In this document: positions 3,526 to 12,269 of the stretch, piece by piece
Position numbering within the stretch: the first letter of the stretch is position 1
How the letters are laid out: every line of letters starts with the position of its first letter
From: Spirochaetota bacterium
Lineage (GTDB): Bacteria > Spirochaetota > Spirochaetia > Treponematales > UBA12059
Direction of reading: 5' to 3'
Assembly (NCBI GenBank): GCA_022703505.1
Contig: JAKLDN010000002.1
Span: 1-64,000 of the forward strand
DNA length: 64,000 nucleotides
Program-made: the position numbers and the translations under genes
The notes under the pieces: generated by a model
Told to the model about the DNA's origin: nothing
Databases searched by the model: none
The model's input: the letters and a program-made list of their open reading frames with translations, nothing else

Positions 3526-5230
3526 TCAGCGCCGAAGCCGCGTCTCCACGTAGGCCCCGTCTCGGTAGACTTCCTCCTTGACGAGGACGCCGTCCTCGAA
3601 GAAGGTCTGGACGCCCTGTTTTTTCCCTTCCGCGAAGGTCACGGTGGAGGAGACAGAGCCGTCCTCCTCGTACCAGGTCCAGACGCCCGTCCGCAGCCCG
3701 CCCCGGCACTCACCCTCCACCAAGAGGATTCCGCCGGGGGCCCAGGTTCTCTGGGGGCCGTCCAGAAGGCCCGCGGAGTAGGTGGACAGGCCGAGGGGGC
3801 TTCCGTCGGGGTAGTAGGTCTTCAGTTCCCCGGTCAGGAGCCCGTTCTCGTAGCGCGCCTCGATCCGGCCGCCCTCCTCCCCGGTCGACAGGATTCCGTC
3901 GCCGTCCCGCACGGCCCGCTCCCCGGTCTCCAGGTAGTAGTCCTTGAGGTATTCCCGCCCGTCCGAGTACTCGAAAACCCTCCTGGGTTTCCCGCCCGGG
4001 TACCAGTCCCGCCAGGTTCCCGTCTTGATCCCCCCGGCGACCGGTCCCTCGACCGCCCGGGTCCCGTCCTCGTACCGCTCCACGTAGCGGCCCTCCCCGT
4101 CGACCACAGTCTCCCGGTCCCCGTCCCGCTGGTACAGGATCCTCTCCCGGCCCCCCGCGAAATCCCTCCGGAGCGTCAGGATCCCCTCCTCCGAGTATCC
4201 CTCCCAGACGCCCGAGGGCTCCCCCTGGTCGAAGGCGGTCCGCGCCCGGAGGGCGCCGGAGTCGGAGCGTATCTCCCACGTGCCGTGCTGGAGATCCAGC
4301 AGCATCGTCCCCGAAGAGCTAAGCCGGCCGTTCGGGTGGTATTCCTCCCAGGGTCCGGTCTTCCGGTCGTATTCGTAGGCGCCCTTCGCACGAAGCGTGC
4401 CGTCGGGATAGAACTGCTCGTAGGGTCCGTGGAGGAAGCCGGCCTTCCAGGTTTTCCGTTCGGACATCGAGCCGTCCTCGGCGTAGTGGACGGACCGGCC
4501 CTCCGGCACGCCCCGGTGGAATTCGATCTCCGCCAGCAGGGTCCCGCTCTCGTCCCAGTATTTCCAGACGCCGTGGGGCTCGTTCCAGCTGGTCGGCCCC
4601 TCGTACTTCGGGGAGCCCGAGTCGTAGACGTCCCGGGCCGTCCCGTCGCTTCGCGCGGCCACGTAGACGGGGATGGCCAGGATGGCCAGGAAGGGGAGGG
4701 CCGCGGCCAGGGCCTTGCGGGGCGGGTAGGGGGGCAGGAGGGGCCGGGGTTCCGCGTCCGACGCGGATCCCTCCGCCGCGGCGGCCGTCTCCGCCTCCGG
4801 AGCGGCCGGCGCCACGGATAACTTCCAGGCCTGGAACACGGCCAGGGCGTAGAATAAAAGGTCTATGGGGCTGAAGGACTCGGCCAGGATCGCGGGGACC
4901 TGGGCCGGGCGCAGGGACAGCAGGGTGTCCAGCAGGCCCGCCCCGGATTCGGCCAGGTAGAACCCGACCTGGGAGAGGTAGTTCCCGAAGACACAGCCGA
5001 ACAAGGCGAAGCCTACGGACAGGATCCGGAAGGCCTTGCCGGATCCCTGCCCGAACCAGCGGACCGAGATCCCCACGAGGGCGCCCACCGCCACGGCCAT
5101 GTAGCCGATCTGGTACTTGGTCAGCACCGTGATCGCCGCCCAGGCCAGGGCGGACAGCACCGCGGCGTCGAAGGCCCCCAGGGCGGCGAACAGGTAGCTC
5201 TTTTCCGGATCGCGTCGGGTCGGGTCCATG
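3526..5230 (-). CDS. Membrane-anchored MORN-variant (YwqK-like) repeat protein
   Basis: 567 residues. The first about 210 residues contain four or more hydrophobic segments (for example AAVLSALAWAAITVLTKY, ALAAALPFLAILAIPVYVAA) and a Pro/Ala-rich linker. The rest is a run of roughly a dozen degenerate repeats of about 22-25 residues with the pattern G-x-W-x-x-Y-x-x-x-G-x-L-x-x-x-G-x-Y/F. Examples are GVWKYWDESGTLLAEIEF, GPYEQFYPDGTLRAKGAY, GTWRDWYPGGKP and GVWTWYEEDGSVSSTVTF. These are MORN_2/YwqK repeats, beta-hairpin modules found in surface and antitoxin-like proteins. Placing the repeats outside the cytoplasmic membrane is inference. A good Shine-Dalgarno (GGAAGGAG) precedes the ATG. It is transcribed towards the flavoredoxin gene. 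No function is assigned. Confidence 0.75.
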
Positions 5231-5321: not shown

Positions 5322-6218
5322 TCAGTCCTCCTCGTCCTCCCCGCCCTCCTCGGCCCCGAACAGGGTCGGATCCACGGAGCCGCACTTGTCCTTCACGGCC
5401 TGGGAGAATGTGAAGCGGGGGGCGAGGCAGGCGGGTTTGGCGGGGATGAGGAGCTCCTCCCCGGTCCGCAGGTTCCTGGTGAGCCGGGCCTTCCGGGCCG
5501 CCTGGTAGCGCAAGGAGGCGCTGCCGAGCTTGCCGACCGAGACCCGCTCGCCCAGGAGCATCCCGGTCTCCACCATGGACAGGTAGTCCTCGATGAGGCC
5601 CCGGGCGGCCAGCTGGGTGACACCGTTCTTCTTGGCGATGTAGCCGATGATGGCCTTGGCGGTGAACTGGTCCACCTCCGGGACGGGCTCGAGGGAGTGG
5701 GTGCGGTTGAGCTTCACGAAGCCGTTCGTGAGGTAGACGGTGGCCTCCCGGATCCTCCGTTCCTGGTCGTCCGCGGAGAGACCCTCGGGGCAGACGGCGA
5801 TACGGAAGAGAGCCGAGGACCGCTTGACGGGGCAGCCCTCGAAGACGGCCGCCTGGTCCAGGCGGATCGGGCCCGCCAGGCTCGCCTTGTCTCCCCGCAC
5901 GAGCTCGGGCACGTCCGTCCGGAGCTTGATGGAGGCGTACTCGAGCCAGCGGCTCCTGCCCCGGAGGGGCCCCAGGCTGATGAGGGACCCGGAGTAGGTG
6001 AGGAGGACGGCCCCCCGGGTATCCTCCTTCCCGAGCTCCGGGACGAGCTCCATGCCCAGGGCCCCCACCTGACCCGTGAAGAGCCGGTACTTCTCGTCCC
6101 AGATCACCGCGAGGCGTTTCCGGGTCTCCTCGTCCCCGTCCAGGCCGGAGTCCTGGATCAGCGAGAGCAACTGCTTCCGGATCGCCTCCGGAAGGTCCTC
6201 GAATTTGACTTCCTTCAT
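5322..6218 (-). CDS. Unknown N-terminal domain fused to a C-terminal HU/IHF-like DNA-binding domain
   Basis: 298 residues. Residues about 183-281 align with HU/IHF: an alpha-helical dimerisation part (FTAKAIIGYIAKKNGVTQ, AARGLIEDYLSMVETGMLLG), the loop GERVSVGKLGSASLR, then the basic beta-arm ARKARLTRNLRTGEELLIPA and a final helix. The arm tip reads RNL-RTGE where HU has RNP-x-TGE, so the DNA-intercalating Pro is replaced. Residues about 30-172 form a separate domain (RGAVLLTYSGSLISLGP, KLRTDVPE, VKRSSALFRIAV) that is clearly paralogous to the protein encoded at 6403-6927. An acidic tail (EEGGEDEED) ends the chain. It is transcribed divergently from that paralogue's operon. Probably a nucleoid-associated or regulatory protein; the N-terminal domain's role is unknown. 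Confidence 0.8.
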   Translation of the reverse strand: MKEVKFEDLPEAIRKQLLSLIQDSGLDGDEETRKRLAVIWDEKYRLFTGQVGALGMELVPELGKEDTRGAVLLTYSGSLISLGPLRGRSRWLEYASIKLRTDVPELVRGDKASLAGPIRLDQAAVFEGCPVKRSSALFRIAVCPEGLSADDQERRIREATVYLTNGFVKLNRTHSLEPVPEVDQFTAKAIIGYIAKKNGVTQLAARGLIEDYLSMVETGMLLGERVSVGKLGSASLRYQAARKARLTRNLRTGEELLIPAKPACLAPRFTFSQAVKDKCGSVDPTLFGAEEGGEDEED

Positions 6219-6402
6219 TCCCTCCCCCTCTCCCGGGACCGGGCTGACTGAAAAACTCCTGAGTTTTTGGCCGGCCCGAGGTCCCGCGGCCGCACCCTAC
6301 CCCCTTACTATACCACGAAATCCAAGTTTTTTCATTTTTTCTCGTAAAATACCGTGAAAAATTCAAAAGAATGCTGTATCTTAGGGGCGACAGGAGGAAC
6401 AC
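6219..6402. promoter_or_regulatory. Divergent promoter region between the HU-fusion gene and its paralogue operon
   Basis: This 184-base gap is much richer in A+T than its surroundings, especially 6295-6375. For the rightward operon, a GTGAAA with TATCTT 17 bases later (near 6351-6379) is a plausible weak sigma-70 promoter, and ACAGGAGGAACAC gives a strong ribosome-binding site for the ATG at 6403. A small hairpin with arms AAAAACTC/GAGTTTTT lies near 6251-6268 just upstream of the leftward gene. No operator could be picked out with confidence. Confidence 0.45.
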
Positions 6403-6927
6403 ATGAGCACGTTCGAAACCTTGGAGCCCATCATCCAGGACCATATCCGGCAGATCGCGAAGACCTCGGGACTCCCGGCGGGCCCGGACACCTACGAGAT
6501 GATGGCGGACGCCTGGCTGGAGAAGAAGACCTGTTTCGAGGAGGCCCTGGCGGGCAACGACCTGGAGGAGGTCTCCTTCTTCGGCCGCGCCGAGGCCCGG
6601 GGGGCCCTGGTCCTGACCTACTCGGGATCCCTCCTCAACATCGGCCCCCAGGTCGAGGGCCTGCGGCGCTGCGAGTACACCTCCATCGGCATGCGAACCG
6701 ACGTCCCCGCCTCCGCGGTGGAGGAGGCCTCGGTCCTGGAGGCGGACCTGGAGGCCGACGAGCCCGCCCGCTTCGAGAAGGGCCCGATCAAGTCGAGCTC
6801 CCCGGTCTTCAAGATCGCGGTGGCCAAGGCCAAGCTGGAGGCGGAGGAGGAGGAAGCCCTCCTGACCCAGGTGTCCCAGGGGCTGGCCGAGGACTTCGTG
6901 GAAGTGAACAAGACCGTCATCGAGTAG
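6403..6927 (+). CDS. Unknown protein, paralogue of the N-terminal domain of the HU-fusion protein
   Basis: 174 residues, acidic, no signal peptide or membrane segment. It aligns end to end with residues about 20-172 of the HU-fusion protein encoded divergently. Shared blocks are RGALVLTYSGSLLNIGP, CEYTSIGMRTDVP, the segment FEKGPIKSSSPVFKIAVA, and a final amphipathic helix ending LAEDFVEVNKTV. It lacks the HU domain. It opens a tight operon: the phosphatase gene starts 16 bases after its stop. One could imagine an adaptor or ligand-binding fold shared by the two proteins, but no known family was recognised. The Shine-Dalgarno is strong (AGGAGG). Confidence 0.7.
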   Translation: MSTFETLEPIIQDHIRQIAKTSGLPAGPDTYEMMADAWLEKKTCFEEALAGNDLEEVSFFGRAEARGALVLTYSGSLLNIGPQVEGLRRCEYTSIGMRTDVPASAVEEASVLEADLEADEPARFEKGPIKSSSPVFKIAVAKAKLEAEEEEALLTQVSQGLAEDFVEVNKTVIE

Positions 6928-6943
6928 GCGGGGCGGAACGAGC

Positions 6944-8011
6944 ATGTCCGCCGCGGAAGCGGTCCGGGCGGCCTTCCTTCGCCGGGGCCTGCCCGACCGG
7001 GAGGAGTACCTGGCCAAGGTGGAGGCCGCCTCGGACGCCCTGGACGCCGAGGGAGGCCCCGGCAGGCCCCGGGATTCCCGGGGCCTGCCGGGGGGCCTGG
7101 TGCGCCTGGCCGGGGACGCCCCGACCATCCTGCTCCCGGACCTCCACGCCCGGACGGACTTCCTGGCCAGTGTCCTTTTCCAGCCCCTGCCGGAGGGGCA
7201 GACGGTCCTGGACGCCCTGGGGGAGGGGGCCCTGCAGATCCTCTGCCTGGGGGACGGCTTCCACGCGGAGTCCCGGGCCTTGGACCGCTGGAAGCGGGCC
7301 TACCAGGAATTCGCCGGAGGCTACGCGAAGCACAAGGCCATGGACCAGGAGATGCGGGAGAGCCTTTCCCTCATGGAGATGGTCCTGGTCTGCAAGGCGG
7401 CCTTTCCGGGGCGCTTCCACTTCCTCAAGGGCAACCACGAGAACGTCCTGAACGAGGAGGGGAACGGGAACCATCCGTTCCGGAAGTTCGCCCTGGAGGG
7501 GATGATGGTGACCTCCTGGCTGGAGCGATTCTACGGCCGGGACTTCCTGGAGCGCTACGCGGGATTCGAGCGGCGGCTGCCCCTGTTCGCCACGGGCCCC
7601 CGCTTCCTCGCGTCCCACGCGGAGCCCCAACGAGCGTATTCGGAAATGGAGCTGATCGACGCCCGGCTGGATCCCGGGACGGTCCTGGGCCTGACCTGGA
7701 CGGACAACGGAGCCGCGGATCCCCGGGCTGTTCCGGTCCTCCTGGACCGGTTCCTTCCGGGCATCCCGGGAGCCCGCTACTTCACGGGCCACCGGGCCAT
7801 CCGGGGCGTCTACCGGGAGCTCTCCGGCGGCCGGCATCTGCAGATCCACAACCCGGACAGGTTCGTGGTAGCCTGGGTCATGCCGGGCCGGGACTTCGAC
7901 CCGGAACTGGATATCGGTGAGATTCGAGACATCACCGCGGACCTGCGAAAGGTCCACGCCGCGGACCTGAAAAGGCCCCGCACAGCGGACCCGCGGAAGT
8001 CCGAGAGATAG
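6944..8011 (+). CDS. Calcineurin-like metallophosphoesterase, PPP-type phosphatase candidate
   Basis: 355 residues. Metal-binding motifs of the PPP Ser/Thr phosphatase/calcineurin-like fold occur in order. LLPDLHART (residues about 63-71) stands for GDxHG, CLGDGFH for GDxxD, and FLKGNHEN for GNHE. Later come a His in LASHAEPQ and GHRAIRG, which resembles the GHT-type block. All likely metal ligands (Asp, His, Asp, Asn, His, His, His) are present, though the second motif lacks the usual VDRG. It lies directly before a Ser/Thr kinase (9-base gap) and after the HU-fusion paralogue, so it is a natural candidate for the opposing phosphatase. A small-molecule substrate such as a dinucleotide is also possible. 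Confidence 0.78.
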   Translation: MSAAEAVRAAFLRRGLPDREEYLAKVEAASDALDAEGGPGRPRDSRGLPGGLVRLAGDAPTILLPDLHARTDFLASVLFQPLPEGQTVLDALGEGALQILCLGDGFHAESRALDRWKRAYQEFAGGYAKHKAMDQEMRESLSLMEMVLVCKAAFPGRFHFLKGNHENVLNEEGNGNHPFRKFALEGMMVTSWLERFYGRDFLERYAGFERRLPLFATGPRFLASHAEPQRAYSEMELIDARLDPGTVLGLTWTDNGAADPRAVPVLLDRFLPGIPGARYFTGHRAIRGVYRELSGGRHLQIHNPDRFVVAWVMPGRDFDPELDIGEIRDITADLRKVHAADLKRPRTADPRKSER

Positions 8012-8020
8012 GAGATCGAT

Positions 8021-9898
8021 ATGGCCGTGTTCCCCGAGCTGATCGGCAAGTACCCGATCGAATCCCTGGTCGCCAAGGGCGGGATGGGGGCCGTGTTCAA
8101 GGCCCTGCACCCGACCCTCAAGCGCCACGTGATCATCAAGAAGCTGACCCTGCGGGGCAGCGCCACGATCACGGAGCGCTTCAAGCGGGAAGCCCGGATC
8201 CTCATGGACTTCAAGAACGACCACATCGTCCGGGTCTTCGACCATTTCAAGGAAGGAAGCTCCCACTACATCGTCCTGGAGTACGTGGACGGAATGTCCC
8301 TGGACCAGTTGATCAAGCGCCAGCGGAGCCTGTCCAGCGAACTGGCCTTGGTCATCTTCCTGGACGCCTGCCGGGCCCTGCAGTACGCCCACGGGATGGG
8401 GGTGATCCATCGGGACATCAAGCCCGGGAACATCCTCATCTCCCGCAAGGGCGAGGTGAAGCTGGCGGACTTCGGGATCGCGGCCTCCGAGGAGGAGGAC
8501 GACTCGGGCCTGACCAAGGAGGGGATGACCCTGGGGACCCCTTCCTACATGCCCCCGGAGCAGATCGAGAACTCCAAGAACGTGGACCGTCGGGCGGACA
8601 TCTACGCCATGGGGATCATGCTCTACGAGATGGTGACCGGGAAGAAGCCCTACCCCGGGAACTTCGCGCCGGAAACCGTGGTCCTGATCCAAAAGGGCCG
8701 GTACAGGGCGGCGGGCAAGGTCAATCCCAGGGTCCTGCCCTTCGTGGACAAGCTGATCAAGAAGCTCATCAAGCCGGATCCCCGCAAGCGCTTCCAGACC
8801 ATGGACGCGGTCATCAAGACGGTCGAGAAATTCCTGTCCCGCTACTCCGCGGACTCCCTGCGCTCCGTTCTCTCGGACCTCGTGTCGGGGAAGTGCCAGG
8901 ACGAGCCGCGCTACCGCCCCGCCCCGAGGAAGCGTTTCCTCCTGGCCGCCATCCTGGTCCTCCTGGCGGGGATCGGGGCGGGGGGTTGGTACGCATGGAC
9001 GGAGGGTCTGGTCCACCGGTACCTGATGCCGGACCGCTGGGGGGAGCTGCGCCTGGTGGTCCGGGTTCCGAAGTCCCAGGCGGAGGCCGCGGACATCTTC
9101 CTCCGTGCCCGGATCTTCCACAACGACGGCAAGGAGATTCCGGAGGTCGAGGACGTCCGGATCGTCCTGCGGCCGGCGGAGACGGAGGGGGCGGATCCCT
9201 TCCACACCTTCGTCTCGAACCGCCTCTTCCTGGCCCCGGGGCCCTACCGGGTCAAGCTGACCGCGGACCAGGATCTTCATTGGGAATCCTTCCACCTCCT
9301 GCCGTACTCCATGGCGGCCCCGGGTGAGGACGGCGTCCGCGTCCTCCAGTTCCGACTGGAGGATCGGCCCCCCCGGCCCCTGGCGGTCCTGACCGAGGCG
9401 CGGGATGCCCTGACCGGGACGGTCCTGGGCGAGGCCGTCTTCTCGGCCTACCTCCGGGGCGAGTGGAAGCCCCTCGACAAGCTCGAATCCGGGGACCTGA
9501 CCAGCGGGGCGGTCTGGAAGCTGCGGGCCGAGGCCGAGGGGTACTTCCCCGAGGTCTTCTCCCTGCGGATCGCCAACGCCCAGGAGCGCCTGCGCCTGGA
9601 AGCCCGCCTGGCGCCCCGGCCCGGGTCCCTGGTCGTGGAGACTCCCGCGGGGTCCTACCGGCTGACCCTGAACGGCCTGGGCACGGCGGCCTCCGGGGGT
9701 CCGGAGATGCTCCCCCTCCGGCTGGGGACGGTCAAGGAAGGCCGGGTCGAGTGGGAACTGCCCGCGAGCGCGTATGAGCTGGGAGTCGCCCGGGGAGGCG
9801 CCTCGGGGAGGGCGTCCTTCCGGCTGGAGCCGGGCCGCACGGTCCGGATCCGCGTATCCGACGAAGGCGGGACCCTGAGGTTCCGCGTGGAGGAGTGA
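8021..9898 (+). CDS. Transmembrane Ser/Thr protein kinase (Hanks/PknB-like)
   Basis: 625 residues. Kinase domain residues about 10-265: Gly-rich loop VAKGGMGAVFKA, ATP-binding Lys in VIIKKL (about residue 40), Glu in KREARIL, catalytic loop VIHRDIKPGNILI (Asp132), metal-binding DFG at 150-152, and an activation segment ending GTPSYMPPEQ. The TLGTPSYM stretch supplies likely autophosphorylation sites. A basic juxtamembrane segment (APRKRF) leads into one membrane helix at about 305-325. The remaining about 300 residues lie on the other side of the membrane and look beta-rich. No PASTA repeats are present, so the sensor is unidentified. The downstream FHA proteins are plausible phosphothreonine-reading partners. 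The Shine-Dalgarno is GGAG. Confidence 0.93.
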   Translation: MAVFPELIGKYPIESLVAKGGMGAVFKALHPTLKRHVIIKKLTLRGSATITERFKREARILMDFKNDHIVRVFDHFKEGSSHYIVLEYVDGMSLDQLIKRQRSLSSELALVIFLDACRALQYAHGMGVIHRDIKPGNILISRKGEVKLADFGIAASEEEDDSGLTKEGMTLGTPSYMPPEQIENSKNVDRRADIYAMGIMLYEMVTGKKPYPGNFAPETVVLIQKGRYRAAGKVNPRVLPFVDKLIKKLIKPDPRKRFQTMDAVIKTVEKFLSRYSADSLRSVLSDLVSGKCQDEPRYRPAPRKRFLLAAILVLLAGIGAGGWYAWTEGLVHRYLMPDRWGELRLVVRVPKSQAEAADIFLRARIFHNDGKEIPEVEDVRIVLRPAETEGADPFHTFVSNRLFLAPGPYRVKLTADQDLHWESFHLLPYSMAAPGEDGVRVLQFRLEDRPPRPLAVLTEARDALTGTVLGEAVFSAYLRGEWKPLDKLESGDLTSGAVWKLRAEAEGYFPEVFSLRIANAQERLRLEARLAPRPGSLVVETPAGSYRLTLNGLGTAASGGPEMLPLRLGTVKEGRVEWELPASAYELGVARGGASGRASFRLEPGRTVRIRVSDEGGTLRFRVEE

Positions 9899-9901
9899 AC
9901 C

Positions 9902-10795
9902 ATGTCCCTTACCTTGAAGCGCGCGGTCATGGCCGTCCTGGGGATCCTGGGGGCCCTGATGCTCTGGCCCATTCTATTGATGGTCCAGAGGGCCCAGGCC
10001 GCGTTCCCGAGCTACCTGGTCTTCACCTTGTCCCAGGGGGTCTGCCTGGGCCTCGTGTTCGGGGCCCTCTTCGGGTCCTTCGAGGGGATCGTCGTGTCCT
10101 CCCGGTCCAAGGCCTTCCGGGGCCTGGGCTTCGGCGCCCTCTTCGGCGCGGCGGCCGGGGCGGCGGGGGTCCTGGCGGGCCAGCTCTTCCTCTTCCTGGC
10201 CGGGGGCGCCCTCTTCCGTTCGAACAGCTCCCGCCTGGGCCCGGGACTCGCGGCGGCCAACGGGATGGCCTGGGCGATTGCCGGGACCTTCCTGGCCATG
10301 ACGGAGGGCCTTCGGGCACGCTCGGGCCGGAAGCTCCTGGTCGGGCTCCTGGGGGGACTGGCCGGCGGCCTCATCGGAGGCGCGATCCTCTCGGCCCTCC
10401 AGGTACTGGCCCCCGGAGGGAAGTGGTCCCTCCTGGCTGGCCTGGCAGCCTTCGGGTTCCTCCTGACCCTCTTCTATTCTCTCTTCGAGAACCGCTTCCA
10501 GGCGGGGACCCTGAAGCTCCTGAACGGGCCGCTCAAGGGGAAGGAGTATCCGGTGGTGAGCCGGAAGCTCACGGTGGGCACGGACGCCTCCTGCGACATC
10601 GTCCTCGCCGGATATCCCGGGGTGCGGCCCCTCCACGCGACGGTCCACCTGGAGAAGGGCCGGGTCTATATCCGACCCGCGGGACCGGACGCCGGGGTCC
10701 TGGTCAACGACGGACCCGCGGGGGACGCGGCCCTGAGGCCCGAGGACGTCCTGGCCGCGGGCAAGGCGAAATTCCTGTACGGCTACTTCGCGTGA
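9902..10795 (+). CDS. Polytopic membrane protein with C-terminal FHA-like domain
   Basis: 297 residues. About six hydrophobic segments fill residues 5-195, many Gly/Ala-rich. They are followed by a soluble domain (about 205-297) with FHA-like elements: GTLKLLNGPLKGKEYPV, LTVGTDASCDIVLAG, and RPLHATVHLEKGRVYIRP, ending in a beta-rich tail. The G-x-D-x-x-x-D-I-V and H-A-T-V pattern corresponds to the G-R-x-x-x-x-D-I and S-x-x-H-A-x-I signature, although the canonical first Arg is replaced. It starts three bases after the kinase stop, implying translational coupling. The FHA domain would sit in the cytoplasm and could bind phosphorylated kinase or substrate. The membrane part is of unknown role. 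Confidence 0.75.
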   Translation: MSLTLKRAVMAVLGILGALMLWPILLMVQRAQAAFPSYLVFTLSQGVCLGLVFGALFGSFEGIVVSSRSKAFRGLGFGALFGAAAGAAGVLAGQLFLFLAGGALFRSNSSRLGPGLAAANGMAWAIAGTFLAMTEGLRARSGRKLLVGLLGGLAGGLIGGAILSALQVLAPGGKWSLLAGLAAFGFLLTLFYSLFENRFQAGTLKLLNGPLKGKEYPVVSRKLTVGTDASCDIVLAGYPGVRPLHATVHLEKGRVYIRPAGPDAGVLVNDGPAGDAALRPEDVLAAGKAKFLYGYFA

Positions 10796-10817
10796 CGCGA
10801 AGGCGGGGGTGAGGATC

Positions 10818-12269
10818 ATGAGAGCTTTCCGATACGGTTTCCTAATACTGATCGCCGCCTTGGCGGCGGTTCCGGGGGCGGGCCAGGGGCTGGCCATCAC
10901 CCAAATCGACACGGAGCGGCTCCTGTTCGGCCAGTCCGTGCGGCTCTACCTCTCCGCCCCCGGGGCGGCCGGGACCGAGTCCCCGGACGTCGAGGTCTGG
11001 GAATCCGGGGAGGGCGGGGAATGGGCTCCGAGGCCCGTGACCGCCGTATCCCGGGGGATCAACGACGCGGAGGGGATCGCCTTCTTCTTCCTCCTGGACA
11101 ACTCCGGCAGCATGTGGACCGGCCTGGACGGCCGGGAAGGCGCACCGACCGAGGATCAGCGGATGACCCACGCCAAGGCCGCCGCCCGGGCCTTCCTGGC
11201 CGAGGCGTCCCGGCAGGGCCGCGGGAAGGACCGGATCGGCCTGGGGGTGTTCAACACCCGCTACTGGAAGGCCGCGGATCCCGTGGGGGATTTCGAGAGG
11301 ATCTCCCGGGGCCTGGACGAGATCCGCAAGCCCGCGACCGAGGACGCCTACACGGAGCTCTACCTCTCCCTGGACCGCGCCCTGGCGGACTTCGCGGGGG
11401 TGCCCGGACGGCGTGCCCTGGTGGTCCTCTCGGACGGGGAGAACTTCCCCTATTACATCCGAACCGGCAAGCCGAACCCCGAGACCGGGACCCGGACCAC
11501 GGGCCCCGAGGACGTGGTGGAGCGAGCCGCCCGGGAGGGGATCACCGTGTACGTGGTCCGCTTCGGGAACGAGAAGGACCCCTCCCTGGGGGACGCGGCG
11601 GTGCGGACCGGGGGCAAGGTATTCGACGCCTCGAACCGGGACGAGCTGGCCGCGGTCTACTCCACGATCCGTGCGGACGTCCTGGCGGAGATCGCCGTGG
11701 ACTACCGGGCGGGCATGGCCCCCGGCAGCCGCCGGAACGTCCGGGCGGTCCTGCGGGACCGGGAGGGGCGGGAGTTCTCCTCGGAGCGATACTACTACGC
11801 CGGCACCGTCCTGGGCTGGAGCCGGGACCTTCCCGGCTGGTATTACCTGGCCTTCCTGCTCGTGCCGGCCCTCCTGTGGCTGGCCCTCCTGGTGTTCAAG
11901 CTGGAGAGGGAGACCACCGAGGCGGGGCTTCGGCTCCTCTACGGGCCCTCCGGCGGGGGAACCCGGGTCTTCACCCTGAACTCCCCGCAGACCGTGATCG
12001 GATCCTCCGACGCCGCGGACTTCACGATCGGGGGGAACCCCTCCCTGAAGGAGCGGCACGCCACGATCCTCTTCGACGAGAGGCAGAACGCCTACACCGT
12101 GGTGGGGGACGGGAACCTCACGGTCAACAACCGGGAGGTCGAGCGCAAGCGCCTGGAGCCCGGGGACGTCATCAACATGGCCGGGACCGTGGTGGTCTTC
12201 GACGACGCCCTGGTCAAGAAGACCCCCAAGGGGCGCCTGCCCCAGCCCTCCCGGCGGAAGAGCCAGTAG
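10818..12269 (+). CDS. VWA-domain membrane protein with C-terminal FHA domain
   Basis: About 483 residues. A signal peptide or anchor (FRYGFLILIAALAAVPGAG) is followed by a beta-rich segment and then a von Willebrand A domain. Its MIDAS motif is FLLDNSGSM, with later metal-site residues in TEDAYTELY and VVLSDGEN. A membrane helix (WYYLAFLLVPALLWLALLVF) occurs at about residues 336-357. The C-terminal about 110 residues are an FHA domain: VIGSSDAADFTIGGNPSLKERHATI, with NNREVERKRLEPGDVI, split here by motif rather than quoted in full. The VWA domain should lie outside the cytoplasmic membrane and the FHA inside. ATG 10818 is favoured over the GTG at 10809 because GGCGGGGGTGAGG acts as Shine-Dalgarno. 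It is the last gene of the kinase operon. Confidence 0.82.
   Translation: MRAFRYGFLILIAALAAVPGAGQGLAITQIDTERLLFGQSVRLYLSAPGAAGTESPDVEVWESGEGGEWAPRPVTAVSRGINDAEGIAFFFLLDNSGSMWTGLDGREGAPTEDQRMTHAKAAARAFLAEASRQGRGKDRIGLGVFNTRYWKAADPVGDFERISRGLDEIRKPATEDAYTELYLSLDRALADFAGVPGRRALVVLSDGENFPYYIRTGKPNPETGTRTTGPEDVVERAAREGITVYVVRFGNEKDPSLGDAAVRTGGKVFDASNRDELAAVYSTIRADVLAEIAVDYRAGMAPGSRRNVRAVLRDREGREFSSERYYYAGTVLGWSRDLPGWYYLAFLLVPALLWLALLVFKLERETTEAGLRLLYGPSGGGTRVFTLNSPQTVIGSSDAADFTIGGNPSLKERHATILFDERQNAYTVVGDGNLTVNNREVERKRLEPGDVINMAGTVVVFDDALVKKTPKGRLPQPSRRKSQ

Follow-up and report, generated by a model that had tools for sequence, protein, structure and literature searches.

GarA and OdhI, which act with PknB/PknG, are small FHA switches whose N-terminal phosphothreonine is bound by their own FHA domain. 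A larger set of parts makes up the Arn system of Sulfolobus acidocaldarius, namely the FHA protein ArnA, the VWA protein ArnB, the kinase ArnC and PP2A, in which the assembly of FHA and VWA proteins as a pair is governed by the kinase and PP2A (PMC7472852, PMC6509490). In M. tuberculosis, HU is phosphorylated by Ser/Thr kinases, and this phosphorylation weakens its binding to DNA (PMC6523023).

The locus considered here lies at 5322-12269 in a 64,000-nucleotide stretch of DNA from a Spirochaetota bacterium (the whole stretch analysed is hereafter the window), and comprises six predicted genes (Table 1): one for a protein in which a domain that we call X is fused to an HU-type domain (X-HU), divergent from an operon that encodes a stand-alone X, a PPP-like phosphatase, a Hanks-type kinase, a membrane FHA protein and a VWA-FHA protein. 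Its likeness to Arn is by parts list only (FHA, VWA, eukaryotic-type kinase and PPP phosphatase are common to both), and it differs from Arn in that it belongs to Spirochaetota, its FHA and VWA-FHA proteins are membrane-bound with degenerate FHA domains, and X and X-HU are present in addition. With the M. tuberculosis case it would share an HU-fold protein as the proposed output of a kinase; there, however, HU itself is the target, whereas the spirochaete HU domain is fused to X and encoded beside a dedicated kinase. An open-access literature search of incomplete coverage returned no description of such a spirochaete module.

Table 1. Features of the X/X-HU locus, in window coordinates
Feature	Position	Strand	Properties
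X-HU fusion	5322..6218	-	298 aa
Parts of X-HU			X domain 1-173; low-confidence linker about 172-186; HU/IHF-type DNA-binding domain about 186-278; acidic tail
Divergent intergenic region	6219..6402	.	184 bp; 52% GC inside 68% GC DNA
Promoter-like site for X-HU, ATGAAA-17-TATAGT	6307..6335	-	Consensus match only
A/T-tract element between both promoters, candidate operator	6327..6368	.	Conservation in close relatives
X, stand-alone	6403..6927	+	174 aa; computed pI 4.4
PPP-like metallophosphatase	6944..8011	+	355 aa
Hanks-type Ser/Thr kinase	8021..9898	+	625 aa; TM 306-324; extracytoplasmic C-terminal part
Membrane FHA protein	9902..10795	+	297 aa; glycine-rich TM part and cytoplasmic FHA-fold domain
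VWA-FHA protein	10809..12269	+	486 aa; signal sequence, VWA, TM 347-365, degenerate FHA

All six genes reported in the initial annotation, including the HU fusion divergent from an operon led by its stand-alone paralogue, were recovered, and the paralogy of X with the N-terminal part of X-HU is confirmed by 35% identity over 168 residues (E 4e-27). The tight spacing of the operon also stands, with its range corrected from 3-22 bases to measured gaps of 16, 9, 3 and 13 bases. A MORN-repeat (MORN_2) protein, encoded at 3526-5230, adjoins X-HU and is not conserved with the module.

The kinase, the PPP-like phosphatase, the membrane FHA protein, the VWA-FHA protein, X and X-HU are co-inherited as a unit. 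Within the same GTDB family, the window genome and 13 of 22 sampled relatives have X or X-HU, and wherever the contig permits, the six-gene block is intact in family relatives, with flanking genes that differ outside the genus. Across 84,980 species scanned, 64 loci were recovered, of which Spirochaetota account for 63 and a weak and doubtful match in Candidatus Saganbacteria for one; as the query was a single conserved peptide, remote members of the X family elsewhere may be missed. (The Saganbacteria match, L126:240-1043, is a weak X-like domain near purine and isoprenoid genes, and is the sole candidate outside the phylum.) X is the first gene in every locus that shows the operon, the median spacing between operon genes is about 10-15 bases in X loci across the phylum, and the kinase comes directly after X in 41 of the 49 X loci that are followed by 3.5 kb or more of sequence. 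The phosphatase gene is missing between X and kinase in ten loci. Among 296 Spirochaetota genomes sampled, X is present in 33 and the full-length membrane FHA protein in 29, every one of which has X (an overlap counted by hand from two genome lists). Scattering of the paralogues away from these neighbours, which the initial annotation named as refuting, was sought and not seen, save for a small group of additional X genes that mostly adjoin an FHA-LuxR protein instead. Since the same six-gene block recurs with unrelated flanks in the GTDB family, and its core recurs across the phylum, the association is far beyond chance, and linkage together with the phylogenetic profile identifies a single module and not scattered genes. 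Of 43 operon loci, 30 include X-HU and 13 do not, which we count against the phospho-signalling reading developed below.

In a tree of the two protein types, one branch with support of 100/99 separates X from X-HU, so the two split once and early. The module occurs in the cultured species Alkalispirochaeta alkalica and Breznakiella homolactica. No further neighbour recurs widely (the commonest clusters are in 10 and 7 of the 64 loci), and no relatives of X were found in viral contigs. The phosphatase is also found in many Treponema-like genomes without X, and in three such loci (L127, L128 and L129) a small canonical FHA protein, a PPP-like phosphatase and a Hanks kinase form an operon without X. 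The Treponema-type operon resembles the present one in its homologous phosphatase and kinase, with the small FHA gene directly upstream, and differs in having no adjoining X, X-HU, membrane FHA or VWA-FHA gene; it is possibly the ancestral core.

No Hanks kinase besides that of the operon was detected in the genome. The operon kinase (Pfam Pkinase, E 4.3e-53) has the catalytic Lys, HRD, DFG and glycine loop of its class: in 51 sequences K40 is conserved at 98%, D132, N137 and D150 at 100% and G20-G23 at 98-100%, with HRD and DFG invariant. The phosphatase matches Pfam Metallophos below the curated cut-off; nevertheless, the metal-ligand motifs (DxH, GD, GNHE, H, H) are present, D66, H68, D104, N164, H165, H225 and H283 are conserved at 100% (42 sequences), and the family profile reaches eukaryotic PP1/PP5. 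Its earlier designation as a PPP-type enzyme therefore holds for the metal ligands but not for the full GDxVDRG signature, which reads GDGFHAE and retains only the G and the D, and for this reason we use the name PPP-like. A second PPP-like paralogue in this genome (G000:C9:210675-211670; L142) lies beside a TPR protein gene, with no kinase. Pfam supports the VWA domain of the VWA-FHA protein, and its MIDAS is intact (D97xS99xS101, T182 and D209 all 100% conserved). Both this protein and the kinase are predicted to span the membrane, as had been supposed, the topology of the operon proteins being a prediction from hydropathy only.

An FHA domain is supported by Pfam in both operon FHA proteins; for the membrane FHA protein the best Pfam match is the cytoplasmic domain of T3SS YscD, and the top PDB matches of its profile are GarA and OdhI. 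A phosphothreonine-reading FHA domain was taken to have a pocket Arg (GR), Ser (SxxH) and Asn (NGT). In alignment with GarA, these positions are replaced in both operon domains (R, S and N are retained in 2, 6 and 0 of 26 membrane FHA sequences, and in 0, 1 and 0 of 24 VWA-FHA sequences). With the pocket residues gone, the suggestion that these domains read phosphothreonine has to be abandoned, and to judge from their sequences both are best read as scaffolds. The genome has three FHA domains, and the third is in a small canonical FHA protein encoded outside the window on another contig (G000:C3:29189-29389). This gene is unlinked to the module in this genome, a further point against phospho-signalling, yet its relatives adjoin X-HU or X in several other genomes, and directly precede the phosphatase and kinase genes in Treponema-like genomes. 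The pocket Arg, Ser, His and Asn are each kept in 14/14, and an N-terminal Thr-Ile (T4-I5) is invariant in the 14 aligned sequences, mostly as D-x-T-I. It is likely that this separate protein is the phosphothreonine reader of the module. It resembles GarA and OdhI in consisting of an FHA domain alone, whose pocket is complete, and in its invariant N-terminal Thr (T4-I5 being a candidate only), and differs from them in its D-x-T-I motif and its linkage to X-HU; we know of no action of the spirochaete protein on 2-oxoglutarate dehydrogenase.

X had no family match in Pfam or NCBIfam. The structure prediction recommended for the protein encoded from 6403 gave a confident AlphaFold2 model (pLDDT 90.9), with helices at 9-21 and 28-51, a beta domain at 54-141 and a long C-terminal helix at 147-173, which matched no solved structure (best Foldseek E 0.017 in PDB and 0.012 among viral structures; best Z 3.9). 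Such an absence of fold relatives does not prove a new fold. A proteasome subunit, the single weak PDB sequence match (E 0.0057), was disbelieved as a relative. In the X-HU model (pLDDT 84.7), the X domain is followed by a low-confidence linker and then an HU/IHF fold. That the HU-like part has a real HU fold is borne out by Pfam (Bac_DNA_binding, E 3.4e-11, 43.7 bits against a cut-off of 22.4) and by Foldseek (Anabaena HU, E 4.5e-6; IHF, E <1e-3), while assignment to HU-HIG fails in Pfam (15.2 bits against a gathering score of 26.2). An ordinary HU is encoded elsewhere in the genome, and X-HU is thus a second, separate HU-type protein. Two variants of these architectures may be mentioned: at L133:8604-10526, a divergent X lies beside a membrane-anchored HU, a protein whose HU domain is N-terminal and in which a TM helix and a LysM-like periplasmic region were recognised by eye, and at L130:8439-9449 and L141:8194-9105, X is fused to an unknown C-terminal domain in place of HU.

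The C-terminal tail of X draws attention to one residue. Operon copies end in N-[K/R]-T plus a hydrophobic residue, and position 171 is Thr in 40 of 41 full-operon X proteins; each of the seven copies of X in Spirochaetota with no adjacent kinase has Asp or Glu there, the two classes having been assigned by hand. Of 12 columns of X dominated by Ser or Thr, 171 alone turns acidic in the kinase-less copies, and in six genomes with both kinds the operon copy has Thr171 and the lone copy Asp or Glu. The matching position of X-HU, 173, which sits in the low-confidence linker, is Thr or Ser in 32 of 34 sequences. This pattern makes Thr171 a candidate phospho-acceptor. Three observations count against the phospho-signalling reading: the acidic copies are mostly in one clade and hence represent few independent events; in a clade that lacks the phosphatase (L111, L114, L116 and L123) the kinase is present, yet residue 171 is acidic; and Thr171 is retained in five of nine X proteins from loci without the phosphatase. 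Six of the seven lone copies (L106, L110, L115, L121, L122 and L124) are extra X genes with Asp/Glu171, divergent to a gene for a canonical FHA-LuxR (GerE) regulator; Pfam confirmed FHA and GerE for two.

A membrane kinase and a phosphatase linked to X, which is also fused to HU, raise the possibility that an envelope signal reaches the chromosome by phosphorylation. The explanation that we prefer, at what we consider about even chances, is that the six genes specify a Spirochaetota-specific Ser/Thr phospho-signalling module. Sensing of the envelope would fall to the periplasmic portions of kinase and VWA protein, with the two degenerate FHA domains serving as scaffolds; the kinase would phosphorylate the N-[K/R]-[T/S] tail motif at the end of X (Thr171) and in the linker of X-HU (Thr173), the phosphatase would reset it, and the small canonical FHA protein would read the phosphorylated form. 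Free X and X-HU, having a domain in common, might compete for this reader or for each other, and the competition would alter how X-HU binds DNA, beginning with the divergent promoter of its own gene. The more specific idea, that X is a new phospho-switch domain written by the kinase at Thr171/Thr173, erased by the phosphatase and read by the small FHA protein, with an HU-class output and with Asp/Glu copies locked on, is put forward more tentatively, as a proposal that may well be wrong.

The divergent promoter region bears on these ideas. The window's element has a single copy in its own genome and a single copy in a close relative's, and a search of a third family member returned none. A 40-bp element is conserved in a different clade, even where identity between X proteins falls to about 45%; of five genomes searched, four have a single copy, at the X-HU/X promoter, and the fifth has none. 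X-HU may bind the conserved element, and the confinement of such elements to some clades is counted against phospho-signalling. Searches for a regulon via the element returned the module's own promoter only, and this candidate was set aside, the three mismatches allowed being such that HU-like low-specificity binding would be missed. The curvature of the window's element, as modelled with wedge parameters, is 70 degrees (4 of 100 shuffles were as high), and DNA bending was rejected as a general feature, being evident in the window's family and a small number of others but missing from clades whose intergenic regions are short. In nine loci (L102, L109, L112, L100, L117, L101, L092, L087 and L093) a palindrome, GCAGCTGC, is conserved between X-HU and X, in the X leader and 3' of the A/T-rich element.

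It is conceivable, though we think it rather unlikely, that the membrane FHA protein, the VWA-FHA protein and the kinase constitute an envelope scaffold or assembly regulator, with X a soluble adaptor and X-HU purely an autorepressor of the operon that has no wider nucleoid role. The leading position of X, the scaffold-like character of the operon FHA domains (with the YscD match), the restriction of the element, where found, to one copy per genome at the X-HU/X promoter, and the existence of a separate canonical HU would all accord with this; however, the site search was blind to the binding mode expected of an HU-like protein, and the extra X genes beside the FHA-LuxR regulator suggest a broader link of X to DNA-binding outputs. 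Less probable still is that X is not a substrate and instead is a sensor that binds a ligand or phosphate, the kinase and phosphatase following its ligand state: K41, T72, S74, S76, R88, S94, R98 and S133, which would form the pocket, are invariant or nearly so in X and X-HU across the phylum, but such a role leaves the change from Thr171 to Asp/Glu unexplained. An anti-phage defence or toxin-antitoxin type of system is very improbable and was set aside, since the scores of the kinase against many PADLOC kinase models reflect generic kinase-domain matches, the other five proteins match no PADLOC model, and X and X-HU are co-inherited across the whole phylum.

X represents a domain family that lacks annotation and whose confident model has no match among solved folds, and we regard the module as a variant form of Ser/Thr kinase signalling with this new domain at its base. 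If X is indeed a phospho-switch domain as proposed, an envelope kinase would have an HU-class architectural protein as its dedicated output in transcription, and the extra X copies with fixed Asp or Glu would be locked-on versions beside FHA-LuxR regulators. To our knowledge, few bacterial Ser/Thr kinases are known to have a DNA-binding partner dedicated to them; in this module, the gene for such a partner would adjoin that for the kinase, and candidates for the phosphosite, the reader and the operator can be named.
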